From NCBI GenBank assembly GCA_004298675.1, contig SCRI01000002.1, positions 33,396-97,395 on the forward strand: a stretch of 64,000 nt of DNA, read 5' to 3'. The stretch comes from a bacterium. Lineage in GTDB: Bacteria; Vulcanimicrobiota; Vulcanimicrobiia; Vulcanimicrobiales; SCRA01. A program made the translations under genes and the position numbers. The notes beneath the pieces were generated by a model. It was not told the origin of the DNA. It searched no databases and was given only the letters and a program-made list of their open reading frames with translations. Below are positions 46,627 through 52,701 of this stretch, piece after piece; position 1 is the stretch's first letter; every line of letters starts with the position of its first letter.

Positions 46627-49600
46627 ATGCGCTCCCCGACACCTGTGGCGCGCCGGGTTGCCATCGCCCTCTTCCACGGACGGATCGCGCTCGACGGTCT
46701 AGAGTTCGGCGCGACCCAACGCGAGGCCGCCGTGCTCTTCGCTTTGGCCGCCGCGCCGCGGCGGGCGCTGGATGCACGCCGCCTCGCCGGGACGATCTGG
46801 CCCGACCTCGACGGCGATCAAGGGCGGCGTGCGCTCAAGGTCGTGGTTTCGCGGCTGCGCAAGCGGCTCCCCGAGCAGACGCTGGTGTCACCCGCACCCG
46901 GCCGCTACGGACTAGCCCCCCACGTCGGCATCGATCTCGAGGAACTCACCGTAGCGCTCGCTGCCTGCGAGCAAGGCGAGGACGCCGCGCTGCTGGAACC
47001 GTTCGCGCCGCTGCTGCTGGCGTCACGGCCGCCGCGCCTGCGCGACGCAGAATGGTTCGCGCCGATCGAAACGCTCGTGATCGAGGCGGCGAACCGGCTG
47101 GGGCACCAACTCGCACGCAGTGCGCTCGCGCGCGGCGACGGACACGCACTGCGGCAGTTAGGCCGAGCCAAACTCGATGCCGATCCAACCGACGAGGAAG
47201 GCTGCACGCTGTTGGTGCGCGGCTACCTCCTCGAAGGCTACCGTGAGGCCGCACTCCGGGCCTACGACCGTTTTGCGGAGCGGCTGCGCGGCGAGCTGGG
47301 CTGCGAACCCTCGCTGACATTCGAGGGCATGGCGGCTGCCGCAGGCGCAATCGCCGCCACGACGCGCGGCCTCGCGCGCGGCACGCTGCTGCGCGATCTG
47401 ATCTCCCGCAAAGCGCGTGTCTACCGTTTCGTCGCCGGCCCCGGCTTCGGCAAGACTACGTTGGCCTGGGAGATCGCGCGCAGCCTCGGGCCCCCCTCGC
47501 TGTGCGATCTGCTCGACGTCAAAGGAGCCGTCGACGTCTGGCGGCGACTCATCACGGCACTTGCCGGTCTCGACTCGACGCATGGAGCGCGCTTGATCCA
47601 GGAAAGCATCACGTTTGCCTTCGCCGATACCGATCAGCGTCGCGGGTATATCCGCAAGATCGCGCAGCGCGCGACCCTCCAGGGCACGCTGCTGGTGGAC
47701 AACATCGACGATGCGCTCGGCGATGCGGCGGGCGCGGCGCTGCTGCAGGCGCTGCTCGGCGGCCGCCCTTCCTGTACGGTAATCCTCTGCGGCCGGCGCG
47801 AGTTGCCGCTCGCAGTGACGGCGGCGTGCGCCGAGGGCGACGCCCTGGCGATCGGTGAGGACGATCTGCGCTTCGAGGCCGCCGACGTGCGTGCGCTGGC
47901 CGGCGAGCACCTCTCGCGCGCCGCGGTGGAACGCGTGCTGCAATGGAGCGGCGGCTGGCCGATGGCAGCCGCCCGTGCCTGCGCGGACCTATGCGCCGGA
48001 CGCAACCTCCCCGCTGCCGCATCGTCGCGAGAGTGGCTGCGCGCGCTCGTGGACGAGACCACCCAGCGGCTCGCCCCCGTCTGGCGCAACGCGCTGTTCG
48101 GCCTGGCGGCGATCTCCGACGCACGTCGCGACGAGTTGCTGGAATCATCGGCAGAGTCCGCTGCGCCCCCGCTCGACGATCTGCGTTCCTCCATCCCGTA
48201 CGTGCGCCGCCGCCCCGATGGCACGTATGCGCTCCACCCGCTCGTGCGCGAGGAGGTGCTTGCGCGCTACCCGCGTGAGTGTCACGCTGCCCGAGAACAG
48301 ATTGTAGCGCAGGCGCGCGCGCGCGGCGATCACCTGCGCTGCGCGGAGCTAGCACTGCGATGCGGTGATCTCCCCGGCGCGGCCGGGGCGCTGGAACTAC
48401 TCGACCAAGATTTCTACGAGCTGCCGCCGCCGCGCTACGTCGCCGTTCTCGAGCGGCTCGACCGCGATCTGCTCTTGCACCGGCCGGCTCTCTGGATGAT
48501 CTGCGAAACCTGTCTACAGAGCGACTTCCTGCCTGTATGGGAGGAGCTGGAGGACGCGCTGCAAGCGAAGATCGACGCATTGCCGCTACGCCAGCAGCTG
48601 GCGTGCACGGCGCTCATGTGCTTCCGGGAGGCGGAGTATCAAGGCGAGTGGGAGCGCGCGCTCGCCCGCTACGAGCGCATCGAACGTACGCTCCCCGTGC
48701 AGGCGGCGCACCCGCGGGACCGGCTCTTCCCCGCGTTGCTGCGCGCGTCGGTTGCCTCCAACTGCGGCTGGGAGTTTGACGAACAGGCCTTTTGGGAGGA
48801 GTACGGCACCGAGCTGGGCGCTTCGAGCATCCTCCACGGCGAGCACCTGTACTTGGAGCATACGCGCTGGTACTTTCGCGGCAACCGGGAGCGCGTCCTG
48901 ACGACGCTAGACCGCTACGCTCAAAGGCTGCGCGCGACGAATTACCCGCTCAACACGCGTATCGCGCTCTACCGCAGCTTCGCCCACCGTTGGGAGCTGG
49001 GTGATCCGGCACCGTTTGAGCGGCAGCGGCACGAGCTCATTGCGCTGCTGCGGGAGCCCACGACTCCGGAGGACTTGCTCACGCATCTGTCGTGGGAGAT
49101 GCTGGATGCCACGCAAGGGGTCTACCCGCGCCGCGGCGGACCCGTCGTCGCGACAGGCTGCATCATCAGCCTCATGCTGGCTGCGTGCAGCGACGACTAC
49201 GATTTGACGCAGCAGGCGATCGCGCGTCTGACGGAGATGAGCGCGAGTACGTCGCTGCGGATGCTGGCGGTCAAGTTGCGCGCCGCGCTCTACTCCTTCG
49301 ATCCAGCCTACGAGCACCTGCTCGACACCGCGTTTGCGAATTTCGACGGTTCGGCCTGTCCGAAATTGCGCGCGGCCTTTAGCGCATTGCGCGCCGGGAA
49401 GAGCGCCGGTATTCTGGAGCCGCTGGCCGCGCGCTTCCGTGCCGCGAGTGAGCGGATGCGCGAGGCGCTCTTCGTCGACGTGACGCTTGGACGCGTGCGC
49501 CGCGGCGGCGTCCCCGTCAAGTTTTCGGATCGAGAGCTGGAGCTGGTGATGCTGCTGGCAGCCGCGGGCCGGCCGCTGCCAGCCATCCAGGTCGCGGAGC

Positions 49601-49941
49601 TGCTCTGGCCGGAAGCGGATGACGCAGCCGCACGCAACGCGCTCAAAGTCTGCGTGAGCCGCCTACGGTCTCGAACCAACTGCAGGGACGCCGTAGTCGT
49701 CGCGGGCGGCGACCTCGCGCTTTCGAACGTACGCGTGCAGACGGACGTGGCGCGGGCGGAGCGGCTGCTGCGGCTGGCCGCGGAGGGCTCGGCGGCGGCG
49801 GCGAGCAGCGCGCGCGAGCTGCTCGAGCGGCCGCTACCGCCGCGTTACGAGCGCTGGCGGTGTGCGGGCGTGATCGCGGCGCGCTTGGAGGCGCTGCGCG
49901 AACGCGCGGGCGACGCTCCCAGCGTGGCGGCGCCGGACTGA
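46627..49941 (+). CDS. STAND-type regulator with winged helix at both ends (SARP/BTAD-NTPase)
   Basis: The 1104-residue protein begins with an OmpR-like winged helix (about 15-95; DGDQGRRALKVVVSRLRKRL) and a BTAD-like helical domain (to about 245), as in SARP/AfsR regulators. Next is an NTPase with Walker A AGPGFGKTTLAWE (about 270) and Walker B LLVDNIDDALGD (about 355), then a helical repeat region. The end (about 955-1050) carries a second winged helix (AELLWPEADDAAARNALKVC, then VSRLRSRTNC) with a short BTAD start. Two DNA-binding domains in one STAND chain is unusual. It is 9 bp downstream of the SPATA20-like gene and 40 bp upstream of a small regulator. Confidence 0.85.
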   Translation: MRSPTPVARRVAIALFHGRIALDGLEFGATQREAAVLFALAAAPRRALDARRLAGTIWPDLDGDQGRRALKVVVSRLRKRLPEQTLVSPAPGRYGLAPHVGIDLEELTVALAACEQGEDAALLEPFAPLLLASRPPRLRDAEWFAPIETLVIEAANRLGHQLARSALARGDGHALRQLGRAKLDADPTDEEGCTLLVRGYLLEGYREAALRAYDRFAERLRGELGCEPSLTFEGMAAAAGAIAATTRGLARGTLLRDLISRKARVYRFVAGPGFGKTTLAWEIARSLGPPSLCDLLDVKGAVDVWRRLITALAGLDSTHGARLIQESITFAFADTDQRRGYIRKIAQRATLQGTLLVDNIDDALGDAAGAALLQALLGGRPSCTVILCGRRELPLAVTAACAEGDALAIGEDDLRFEAADVRALAGEHLSRAAVERVLQWSGGWPMAAARACADLCAGRNLPAAASSREWLRALVDETTQRLAPVWRNALFGLAAISDARRDELLESSAESAAPPLDDLRSSIPYVRRRPDGTYALHPLVREEVLARYPRECHAAREQIVAQARARGDHLRCAELALRCGDLPGAAGALELLDQDFYELPPPRYVAVLERLDRDLLLHRPALWMICETCLQSDFLPVWEELEDALQAKIDALPLRQQLACTALMCFREAEYQGEWERALARYERIERTLPVQAAHPRDRLFPALLRASVASNCGWEFDEQAFWEEYGTELGASSILHGEHLYLEHTRWYFRGNRERVLTTLDRYAQRLRATNYPLNTRIALYRSFAHRWELGDPAPFERQRHELIALLREPTTPEDLLTHLSWEMLDATQGVYPRRGGPVVATGCIISLMLAACSDDYDLTQQAIARLTEMSASTSLRMLAVKLRAALYSFDPAYEHLLDTAFANFDGSACPKLRAAFSALRAGKSAGILEPLAARFRAASERMREALFVDVTLGRVRRGGVPVKFSDRELELVMLLAAAGRPLPAIQVAELLWPEADDAAARNALKVCVSRLRSRTNCRDAVVVAGGDLALSNVRVQTDVARAERLLRLAAEGSAAAASSARELLERPLPPRYERWRCAGVIAARLEALRERAGDAPSVAAPD

Positions 49942-49942
49942 C

Positions 49943-49975
49943 GTAACCTCGGCGTAACCAGCCACCCGCGATAAT
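49943..49975 (+). promoter_or_regulatory. SARP-type operator and -10 element, copy 1
   Basis: GTAACCTCGGCGTAACC at 49943-49959 holds two GTAACC direct repeats with an 11-bp period. Ten bases later comes GATAAT (49970-49975), a good -10 hexamer. Transcription would start at about 49982, which is the ATG of the small regulator, so the transcript would be leaderless. SARP activators bind direct repeats one helical turn apart that end about 8-10 bases before the -10 element. Confidence 0.7.
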
Positions 49976-49981
49976 CGCTCG

Positions 49982-50461
49982 ATGACGGCGCGGGTGGAGA
50001 TCTCACTGGTGCGGTGCGAGGTACGCGTTTCCGGCCAGCGTGCCCCGCTAGCGGGGCAGACGCTGGCACTGGCGCTCTTTCTCGCCGCGGAGCGATGCCC
50101 CGTCTCCAGCGAGCGGCTCGGCACCGTGCTCTTCGGGTCGACCGAACAGCCGCGTCGCGCAGCCAAGGTCTACATCCACCGGCTACGCGCCTGCATTGGA
50201 CGAGACGCCGTCATCCGGCGCGCCGGCGGATACGCGTACAGCGAGTACGTCAACATCGACGTGGCCGCCATCGAGTCATTCGTCGCACGAACCGTGGACG
50301 CGCCGCACACGCGCGCTTCGCGCGCGCAGGCACGGCTTCTGCTCGCGCAACTCGGCGCGGGGCGGCCGGACGCCGTGCTGGCCTGGGGCTGGTTCAAGCC
50401 CGTGGAGCGGCGTCTGCGGCGCTTGGCACTGGACCTGCGCGCGCTTGTAACCTCGGCGTAA
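49982..50461 (+). CDS. stand-alone SARP-like winged-helix regulator with short BTAD
   Basis: The 159-residue protein has an OmpR-like winged helix (about 1-90; ERLGTVLFGSTEQPRRAAKV, YIHRLRACIGRDAVIRRAGG) and only the first part of a BTAD domain (about 92-159; DVAAIESFVA, LAWGWFKPVERRLRRLALDL). Canonical SARPs are about 250-280 residues, so this is a minimal form. It likely binds the GTAACC repeats found before its own start and before the next gene, giving autoregulation plus activation of the lipoprotein operon. No ribosome binding site is seen, in keeping with a leaderless mRNA. Confidence 0.8.
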   Translation: MTARVEISLVRCEVRVSGQRAPLAGQTLALALFLAAERCPVSSERLGTVLFGSTEQPRRAAKVYIHRLRACIGRDAVIRRAGGYAYSEYVNIDVAAIESFVARTVDAPHTRASRAQARLLLAQLGAGRPDAVLAWGWFKPVERRLRRLALDLRALVTSA

Positions 50462-50479
50462 CCCAGGCCCCGCTATCAT
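50447..50479 (+). promoter_or_regulatory. SARP-type operator and -10 element, copy 2
   Basis: The same 17 bases GTAACCTCGGCGTAACC recur at 50447-50463, here inside the last codons of the small regulator gene. Again exactly ten bases separate them from a -10-like hexamer, TATCAT (50474-50479). The start point would be near 50486, leaving a short leader with AAGGAGGT before the lipoprotein ATG at 50502. Confidence 0.7.
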
Positions 50480-50501: not shown

Positions 50502-51686
50502 ATGTTCGCTGCCCGACGTTATGCCACGGTTCTACCGTTACTCTCGATCGGCGCGTTCGCCGCACTTACCGCCTGCGGCGGCGGAGGGGGAGGAGGGGGA
50601 CCGACCCTTCCGCCGGGCACCGCCCCGGGTGTGACGCCGAGCGCCGCCCCCAGCAGCTCGCCAAGCTCCGCTCCGAGCAGCGCGCCCGCGACGCCCGTGC
50701 CTTCAGGCGAGAAGCTCGTCATCGCCGGGAAGTCCGCAAACCTGTCAACGGGGCAGATGGTAGGCCAGTTGACGGTCTTCCCCGTGGGAGCGGCACAACC
50801 GCAGGCAACGTATCCGCCTGCCGGTCAGAAGAACGCGGCTTTTGCGCCGGTTGCCGTAGCCGTCGACACCAACGGGAACGCGTTCGCGCTCGACACGCAA
50901 TCCGACGCCGCGCTCGAGTTCGCCCCGCCCTATACGGGGGTGCCGCTCGTGGTAGCAGGCAGTGGCAGCACCACGCCAGTCTCGCTGGCTATCAGTTCGC
51001 AAAACGTGCTCTTCGTGTCGATCCAGGCACTCTTCGCCTCTTCCGGCGTGAGCCAAGCGGTCCGGATGTACGCCTCCCCATACATGACCGAGGTCGATCT
51101 TCCAATACCGTCCGGAACCCACTTCGCGCCCACGTGCTTGGCTCTCGACGGACAGGGCGATCTCTTCGCGACGAACGCGGAGCAGTTCAGCGGCGATCCC
51201 GGTACCCTCGAATACACGCCACCGTACACCGGTACCCCCACGGCCTTTGCCTTCGGCGGAGCCGGGAGCGTAGGCTCCTTCCAGGGCGCGAACTGCGCCG
51301 TCGACACCGCCTCCGGCGAGCTCTTCATCGGCTACAGCTCGACCATCGCCGCCTATGCGCCACCGTACACGGGCGCCGCGACGGTTATCTCAGAGGGCGC
51401 GTTGAATAGCGGGATGATGGCGGTCTCGAGCGTGAACCACGACCTGTTCGTCGCCAACGGTGCGACGGTCGACGTCTACGCGCCGCCGTACACGAGTAAG
51501 GTGGCGACGGTCTCTAGCGGCGTGAGTCAGCCGGACTTGGTCACCGTTGATGCCACCGGCAATCTCTTCGTCGCCAGCACGTACAATGGTACCGTGACAG
51601 AATACGCTCCTCCGTACACGGGCGCGCCGGCTTGGACGGCCAGCGGATTCGAAACCGTTGGCACGGCTCTCACCGTGGTGCCATAA
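50502..51686 (+). CDS. lipoprotein with six-fold Y-A-P-P-Y-T-G propeller repeats
   Basis: The 394-residue protein has a lipoprotein signal (FAALTAC, then a run of eight Gly), a Pro/Ser/Ala-rich linker (to about 70) and a beta-propeller-like body. The body has six spaced repeats ending in FAPPYTG, YASPYMT, YTPPYTG, YAPPYTG, YAPPYTS and YAPPYTG, each preceded by an NHL/SMP-30-like strand such as VAVDTNGNAFALDTQ. The role is unknown; surface binding or cell-wall contact is plausible. ATG 50502 has a near-perfect AAGGAGGT. It is controlled by the copy-2 operator and is followed 13 bp later by the PDZ gene. Confidence 0.8.
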   Translation: MFAARRYATVLPLLSIGAFAALTACGGGGGGGGPTLPPGTAPGVTPSAAPSSSPSSAPSSAPATPVPSGEKLVIAGKSANLSTGQMVGQLTVFPVGAAQPQATYPPAGQKNAAFAPVAVAVDTNGNAFALDTQSDAALEFAPPYTGVPLVVAGSGSTTPVSLAISSQNVLFVSIQALFASSGVSQAVRMYASPYMTEVDLPIPSGTHFAPTCLALDGQGDLFATNAEQFSGDPGTLEYTPPYTGTPTAFAFGGAGSVGSFQGANCAVDTASGELFIGYSSTIAAYAPPYTGAATVISEGALNSGMMAVSSVNHDLFVANGATVDVYAPPYTSKVATVSSGVSQPDLVTVDATGNLFVASTYNGTVTEYAPPYTGAPAWTASGFETVGTALTVVP

Positions 51687-51699
51687 AGGAGATCGACCG

Positions 51700-52701
51700 A
51701 TGCTCCGCAGATTGCTCGTTGCCGCCATCTCCACCGCCATCGCGCTCGGCGCGAGCGCGCTGCCGGCCGGCGCGCAATATGGCCCCGCTACGGCGGCCGG
51801 GGTCAACGCCGATCAGGCCGCGGCACAGCGCCGTGTCATGATGGACGCGCTGCAAGGCGGGGGCAACCACGGTGGCTGCACCCCGCTCCCCTCCGGCTGG
51901 TCGAGCCTCTCGGCTCGCGTCAACTTCCCCGACGCCTACGGCGGGTACGGCGGGTGGGTGAACATGGCGGAACTGCTGCCGACGAGTCAGGACCTGGCAG
52001 GGTTTCTGAAGAGCCATTCGGGTGGGCCTTTCAATCGCACCGCCGGCGGGACCAGCAGCGCCGTCCACACCGAGCTGTGCGCGCCGGCCGGCTTCAGCTA
52101 CTGGCTGATCGTCGACTCCGGCACGGCGAAAGTCGCGGTAGGACGCGTCACGCTCTCGCAGCCGGGCCACGCGTATCACGTGACGCTCACCGCTCCGCCG
52201 CTGGGCAGCACGCCCAGCTCCTCGACGCCCACCGATTCCGGTGCCACCTCGCCCAATACCGCAACCGGCGCGAGCGCCAATACGCCTCAATCGCCCGTTG
52301 CGACTCTGAGCGCGGAGCTGCACCGGCGGGTGGTGCAGGCGCCACTGTTGGGGATGGCCGGGATCAACATGAACGACACGGTGTGGAGGCTGCTGGGCGT
52401 GACCGAATCGGAGCCGCCGTGCGTCTTCATCACCAGCATCGACCGCGGCGGTTTGGTACAGCGCTTGGGTCTGCAGCGCTTCGACTGCATCTTCAAGCTC
52501 AACGGACAGAGCGTGGCGTCCATCCGCGACTTAGCCGGGTCGCTCGCCACGACGGCATCCGGCTCGCCGCCGGCTTTCCAAGTCCTTCGCAACAAGACGC
52601 TGATCACGGTGACGGCACCCGCGTCGAACCAAGAGGGCTGGATCCCGCCGGTGGTCGGCCCGGGCTACGTTCCCCCCGGGGCCTCCACGCCGGCACCGTA
52701 G
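51700..52701 (+). CDS. secreted PDZ-domain protein
   Basis: The 333-residue protein has a signal peptide (LLVAAISTAIALGASALPAG, cut after AGA), an N-terminal region of about 130 residues without a recognised fold, a Ser/Thr/Pro-rich linker (about 170-205), and a PDZ-like domain (about 215-310; VFITSIDRGGLVQRLGLQRF, DCIFKLNGQSVASIRDLAG). No protease domain is attached. AAAGGAG precedes the ATG, and the short gap to the lipoprotein gene suggests one transcript. It may bind peptide ends or anchor a partner. Its 3' end overlaps convergent metE by 37 bp. Confidence 0.8.
   Translation: MLRRLLVAAISTAIALGASALPAGAQYGPATAAGVNADQAAAQRRVMMDALQGGGNHGGCTPLPSGWSSLSARVNFPDAYGGYGGWVNMAELLPTSQDLAGFLKSHSGGPFNRTAGGTSSAVHTELCAPAGFSYWLIVDSGTAKVAVGRVTLSQPGHAYHVTLTAPPLGSTPSSSTPTDSGATSPNTATGASANTPQSPVATLSAELHRRVVQAPLLGMAGINMNDTVWRLLGVTESEPPCVFITSIDRGGLVQRLGLQRFDCIFKLNGQSVASIRDLAGSLATTASGSPPAFQVLRNKTLITVTAPASNQEGWIPPVVGPGYVPPGASTPAP

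Follow-up and report, generated by a model that had tools for sequence, protein, structure and literature searches.

Comparison with described SARP systems

SARP-type switches are known from antibiotic control in Streptomyces. In the complex of AfsR, the large NOD-TPR SARP of Streptomyces coelicolor, a pair of SARP protomers lies on adjoining 11-bp repeats, which replace the -35 element; R92 contacts a T of each repeat, one such T being 15 bp before the usual start of the -10, and BTA helices 3-7 make the contact with sigma region 4, with the alphaCTD also placed on the BTA domains (PMC10936776). PimR, a SARP-LAL of Streptomyces natalensis, activates a further regulator, of the PAS-LuxR type, via CGGCAAG heptamers (PMC5930380). 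A similar arrangement of sites is found in PhoB/SphR boxes, which are 11-bp direct repeats about 10 bp before the -10 element and have a TAACC core in cyanobacteria (PMC1906773).

The locus described here lies in the window, meaning the whole analyzed stretch of 64,000 nucleotides, of a 3.03-Mb genome (G000). It comprises a large regulator (LAL1104), a short SARP-like regulator (SARP159), a two-gene target operon, and two putative operators with their -10 elements, as follows.

46627-49941, + strand: LAL1104, large regulator with an N-terminal SARP domain (wHTH + BTAD, residues ~10-236), a STAND-like ATPase region (weak AAA match) and a C-terminal second wHTH (~950-1050), assigned with Pfam
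49943-49959, + strand: putative operator 1, GTAACC-TCGGC-GTAACC, pattern kept in relatives
49970-49975, + strand: -10 element GATAAT, 10 nt past operator 1
49982-50461, + strand: SARP159, short SARP-like regulator with a wHTH and the first three BTA-like helices, assigned from an AlphaFold2 model and from fold and profile matches
50447-50463, + strand: putative operator 2, 17-mer identical to operator 1, overlapping the SARP159 stop codon (same overlap in G031)
50474-50479, + strand: -10 element TATCAT, 10 nt past operator 2
50502-51686, + strand: beta-propeller-like repeat lipoprotein, weakly similar to SGL/NHL, heading the target operon
51700-52701, + strand: exported PDZ-domain protein, second gene of the target operon

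The combination of wHTH and BTAD is shared with AfsR, as the STAND-like ATPase of LAL1104 may be, and the sites resemble the afs box in having two 11-bp direct repeats in place of the -35 element, a conserved arginine in the protein and a matching distance to the -10 element (PMC10936776). The T of the second half-site lies 15 bp before the -10, equivalent to T-27 in afsS if the afsS -10 starts at -12, and the predicted operator geometry is a close match to that in the AfsR-DNA structure. In contrast to AfsR, the half-site is GTAACC, LAL1104 has a second wHTH at its C-terminus, the operators stand on neighboring genes for exported proteins and a truncated short SARP, and the circuit is not an actinomycete antibiotic circuit. 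PimR offers a parallel as a SARP-LAL with an operator 5' of a second regulator gene in a hierarchical circuit, but the second regulator at the present locus belongs to the short SARPs, and the structural operon has an identical operator. Small SARPs of the ActII-ORF4 and RedD type share with SARP159 an OmpR-type wHTH followed by BTA helices, whereas SARP159 ends after about three of these. Pho boxes have the repeat period, 10-bp distance and TAACC core of the window sites, although the latter are linked to LAL/SARP genes and the candidate regulators at the locus give no receiver domain match.

Probable operator sites in the window

A first-pass annotation of this DNA had reported identical 17-mers at 49943 and 50447, each exactly 10 nt before a -10 hexamer, and both were found as described, 504 bp apart. 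The two copies of the 33-nt block running from operator through -10 are 79% identical, with similarity stopping at the -10. Operator 1 starts one base past the stop of the 1104-aa gene, and the TAA ending the 159-aa gene (..VTSA*) falls inside the second GTAACC of operator 2. The ATG of the 159-aa gene is only 6 nt past its -10, a spacing from which the SARP159 transcript is probably leaderless; the lipoprotein gene has the ribosome site AAGGAGG. No sigma-70 promoter with a TTGACA-type -35 was found in the region.

The 17-mer pair is not a chance occurrence, because its exact copies are unique in the genome (two sites in 3.03 Mb, both in the window), the operator plus -10 pattern has no other match in all of G000 at up to two mismatches, and shuffled sequence does not reproduce it. 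Within the window, nothing beyond the two operators lies within one mismatch of the 17-mer, and nine matches occur at up to two mismatches against 1.1 expected. In sixty Markov shuffles of the window, 17-mer pairs no more than 1 kb apart came up at a rate of 0.07 per shuffle, and the inner 11-bp repeat was absent from every such pair. Four further genome sites with one mismatch were rejected, three overlapping open frames and one being intergenic, all without a -10 at N10 spacing.

SARP operators are direct repeats with an 11- or 22-bp period, the 3' repeat lying about 8 bp from the -10. The present sites have the 11-bp period, and their hexamer ends 10 nt short of the -10, a distance of 9-10 nt in relatives. 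In all likelihood they are real SARP-type operators, and together they very probably constitute a self-contained SARP-type on-switch for secreted and envelope proteins.

A large and a short regulator

LAL1104, the 1104-aa SARP-STAND-wHTH protein encoded directly upstream of operator 1, had been overlooked in the first-pass annotation. Pfam finds Trans_reg_C in two stretches (47 bits, cut-off 26.2) and BTAD (33.4 bits, cut-off 22.1), so that wHTH and BTAD occur in one protein as in large SARPs and SARP-LALs. The AAA_22 match is weak (16.6 bits against a cut-off of 27) and stands at the expected place; LAL1104 aligns to relatives carrying equally weak AAA/STAND matches. Its C-terminal domain is an OmpR-type wHTH rather than the LuxR-type HTH of a classical LAL. 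The region upstream of its own gene contains no operator.

SARP159 is weakly recognized by Pfam, below the cut-off on Pfam alone. Its AlphaFold2 model (pLDDT 93.5) has an N-terminal OmpR-type wHTH, and its best fold matches among solved structures are AfsR and EmbR (TMq 0.74 for 8hvr); a profile of SARP159 and its relatives likewise has AfsR as best PDB match. The wHTH is followed by three longer helices (93-105, 111-125, and 136-157), about three of the seven of a complete BTA domain, and a BTAD search of the protein gave no match. As modeled, SARP159 is for this reason SARP-like and not a full SARP. R67, the equivalent of AfsR R92, is the only invariant column of the SARP159 family. The three wHTH domains at the locus all have V at the position of AfsR T88 and R at that of R92, and by these contact residues each of the three is a candidate binder. 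No close SARP159 orthologues turned up in the genus or among 84,980 named species. An origin of SARP159 by duplication of the LAL1104 C-terminal wHTH was considered and is unsupported by the tree, in which the SARP159 branch is long.

Operators beside LAL1104 relatives

The pattern GTAACY-N5-GTAACC-N10-NANNAT was scanned in 103 genomes of the order and then in 149 of the phylum, with the reversed pattern as control; all genomes compared are drafts, mostly or all metagenome bins. Nine matches were obtained in the 149 genomes, against one for the control. All nine are in G000 and four genomes of a sister family (G053-G056), none of them more than ~6 kb from LAL1104 or a relative of it, and these five are exactly the scanned genomes with a full-length LAL1104 relative. 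The genus itself comprises four genomes; LAL1104 of G003 is 70% identical, the contig ending inside the gene. Searching named genomes for LAL1104 relatives returned only five, G003 and G053-G056, all metagenome bins. One exact match in a sister genome, G001, lies inside an acyl-CoA ligase gene and was set aside as chance.

In the sister family LAL1104 is represented by a pair of adjacent genes; the product of one ends in the SARP domain, and that of the other has the ATPase and second winged helix. Comparison of the fused gene with two adjacent STAND genes (46627-49941 versus L133:397-5300) points to either fusion or fission of the genes. A single clade, with support of 100/99, unites the SARP domains of LAL1104, G003 and the four sister genomes. 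The thirteen operators collected vary neither in TAAC of the first half-site nor in G.AACC of the second.

The putative operator targets in the sister genomes are a cytochrome-like lipoprotein together with a membrane protein, a lipoprotein of the plastocyanin-like cupredoxin type, a secreted protein of ~190 residues and, in G056, a FecR-domain protein along with a lipoprotein. The earlier proposals of SARP-type operators and of an envelope operon as target are both supported, the geometry being conserved in relatives and the targets being exported or envelope proteins. The first-pass annotation had named, as an observation that would refute it, relatives lacking the 17-mer in front of these genes, and for the PDZ gene this was the case. 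Its ~50% identical relatives come from at least four further genera, where their gene neighborhoods are unrelated, and their loci contain neither SARP nor operator.

Short SARPs in more distant genomes

Twenty other LAL loci were tested for local repeat operators, and only that of G031 was positive, the other 19 and the shuffles giving none. TTAACC-N5-GTAACC-N9-TAGAAT is present just 5' of a gene for a 211-residue SARP, whose start is 6-7 nt past the -10. A second operator, TTAACC-N5-GTAACC-N9-TATTCT, overlaps the stop codon of this gene, with the register seen in the window, and is followed by a gene for a Vgb-type beta-propeller lipoprotein, the LAL gene being divergent. The layout of the window, namely operator, short SARP, operator over the stop, and lipoprotein, thus recurs in a more distant genome. 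The two short SARPs are reciprocal best matches within the compared set, and in a first tree they group together (90/83), both on long branches. G043 has GTAACC-CCACT-GTAACC 5' of a gene for a 191-residue SARP, with the start 6 nt past a weak -10.

Since GTAACC-type operators occur in G031 and G043, neither of which has a SARP domain of the LAL1104 type, the apparent link between LAL1104 and the operator is not universal. Judging from start positions, short SARPs may generally be leaderless.

A short SARP gene in G058 (L085:3150-3614), with its start 6 nt past a TATCCT -10, has no GTAACC repeats.

Proposed circuit and alternatives

We lean towards LAL1104 as the main activator and see the short SARP as one of its targets, probably acting in feedback at these very sites. 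The two GTAACC half-sites, one helical turn apart and occupying the -35 place, would each take up one winged-helix protomer, and the bound protomers would help RNA polymerase to use a promoter that has a -10 but no good -35. The STAND-like ATPase of LAL1104 would gate its complete N-terminal SARP domain in response to a signal, active LAL1104 then switching on the presumed leaderless SARP159 gene and the lipoprotein-PDZ operon. SARP159 also has the DNA-contacting arginine and probably binds the same sites, which would close a feedback loop, and its autoregulation is likely in view of the operator in front of its gene and the matching layout in distant G031. LAL1104 appears the better candidate for activator because it has a BTAD, whereas the later BTA helices are absent in SARP159; on the model, the latter can probably bind the operators but may activate weakly or compete. 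The sequence analysis directly shows the operators with their conservation, geometry and linkage to genes, together with a predicted fold for SARP159; from these we infer the identity of the binder, activation as opposed to repression, the transcript starts, the signal, and the feedback with its sign. A more specific and doubtful version has SARP159 as a natural truncated SARP within a full-length SARP-LAL regulon, competing at the same operator and limiting or shutting off the response. If true, SARP159 would be a built-in feedback brake acting on envelope genes outside the actinomycetes.

The first-pass annotation had made the short regulator the driver. Its membership in the circuit stands, with an operator in front of its gene, but it cannot be assumed to drive it because operators in the sister family occur without a close SARP159 relative and always beside LAL1104 relatives. 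A circuit in which SARP159 alone activates itself and the lipoprotein-PDZ operon via both operators, LAL1104 being unrelated, is rather unlikely. It would account for operators at a conserved distance 5' of short SARP genes in G000, G031 and G043, for the second operator over the stop codon with a lipoprotein behind it in two of these three (G000 and G031), and for the reciprocal best match with the G031 protein in the compared set, and the predicted AfsR-like fold of SARP159 would suit such a role. Against this, eight such operators in sister-family genomes have no short SARP nearby, a search around them having found no close relative, and SARP159 lacks the later BTA helices that touch sigma region 4 and alphaCTD in AfsR.

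The sites could in principle be Pho boxes serving a response regulator of the PhoB/SphR type, the cyanobacterial box being CTTAACCT with an 11-bp period. Period, 10-bp distance (Escherichia coli) and TAACC core do match PhoB/SphR boxes (PMC1906773), as does TTAACC-N5-GTAACC in G031. A Pho regulon, however, is expected to be scattered and to include phosphate-transport operons, whereas the exact pattern is found solely beside LAL genes and nowhere else in the phylum at exact match, and G000 has no further box at up to two mismatches beyond the two sites; we regard this reading as very improbable. Least credible of all is a relic of a local promoter-segment duplication without regulatory meaning. 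Identical 17-mers 504 bp apart do adjoin two related wHTH-coding gene ends, but their flanking sequences show no relationship, SARP159 and the LAL1104 C-terminal wHTH do not group, and the pattern persists between families while its spacers diverge. Such a relic would be refuted if the operator came up again in further families amid unrelated flanks, and it did.

GTAACY-N5-GTAACC-N10-[-10] would be a precise DNA code for SARP-type activation in a group of uncultured bacteria, far from antibiotic clusters, and the locus brings sensor-regulator, short SARP and exported proteins together in a compact local regulon. Truncation of a SARP, it suggests, may be a way to build feedback, and the code would allow the targets of large STAND regulators to be found from sequence alone.

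Related repeats in other genera

A GTAACCTCGCCGTAACC site beside a LAL gene in G097 was rejected, being upstream of a hairpin and without a -10. TAACC-N5-GTAACC-N9-TANCGT or -TACGGT occurs at ~position 1500 of each of five loci from other genera (L163-L167, of G047, G093, G097, G098, and G100), preceding genes of mostly exported proteins, with no control matches in 103 genomes and no LAL in the 3 kb examined. The -10-like hexamer of these sites always ends in GT, and perhaps another regulator of the same kind is involved. The operator-linked lipoproteins of G056 and G031 (L131:17828-18998 and L141:1975-4017) are 36% identical in their N-terminal region and share a YVSP motif; the G093 lipoprotein (L164) looks like them, suggesting a recurring target type.
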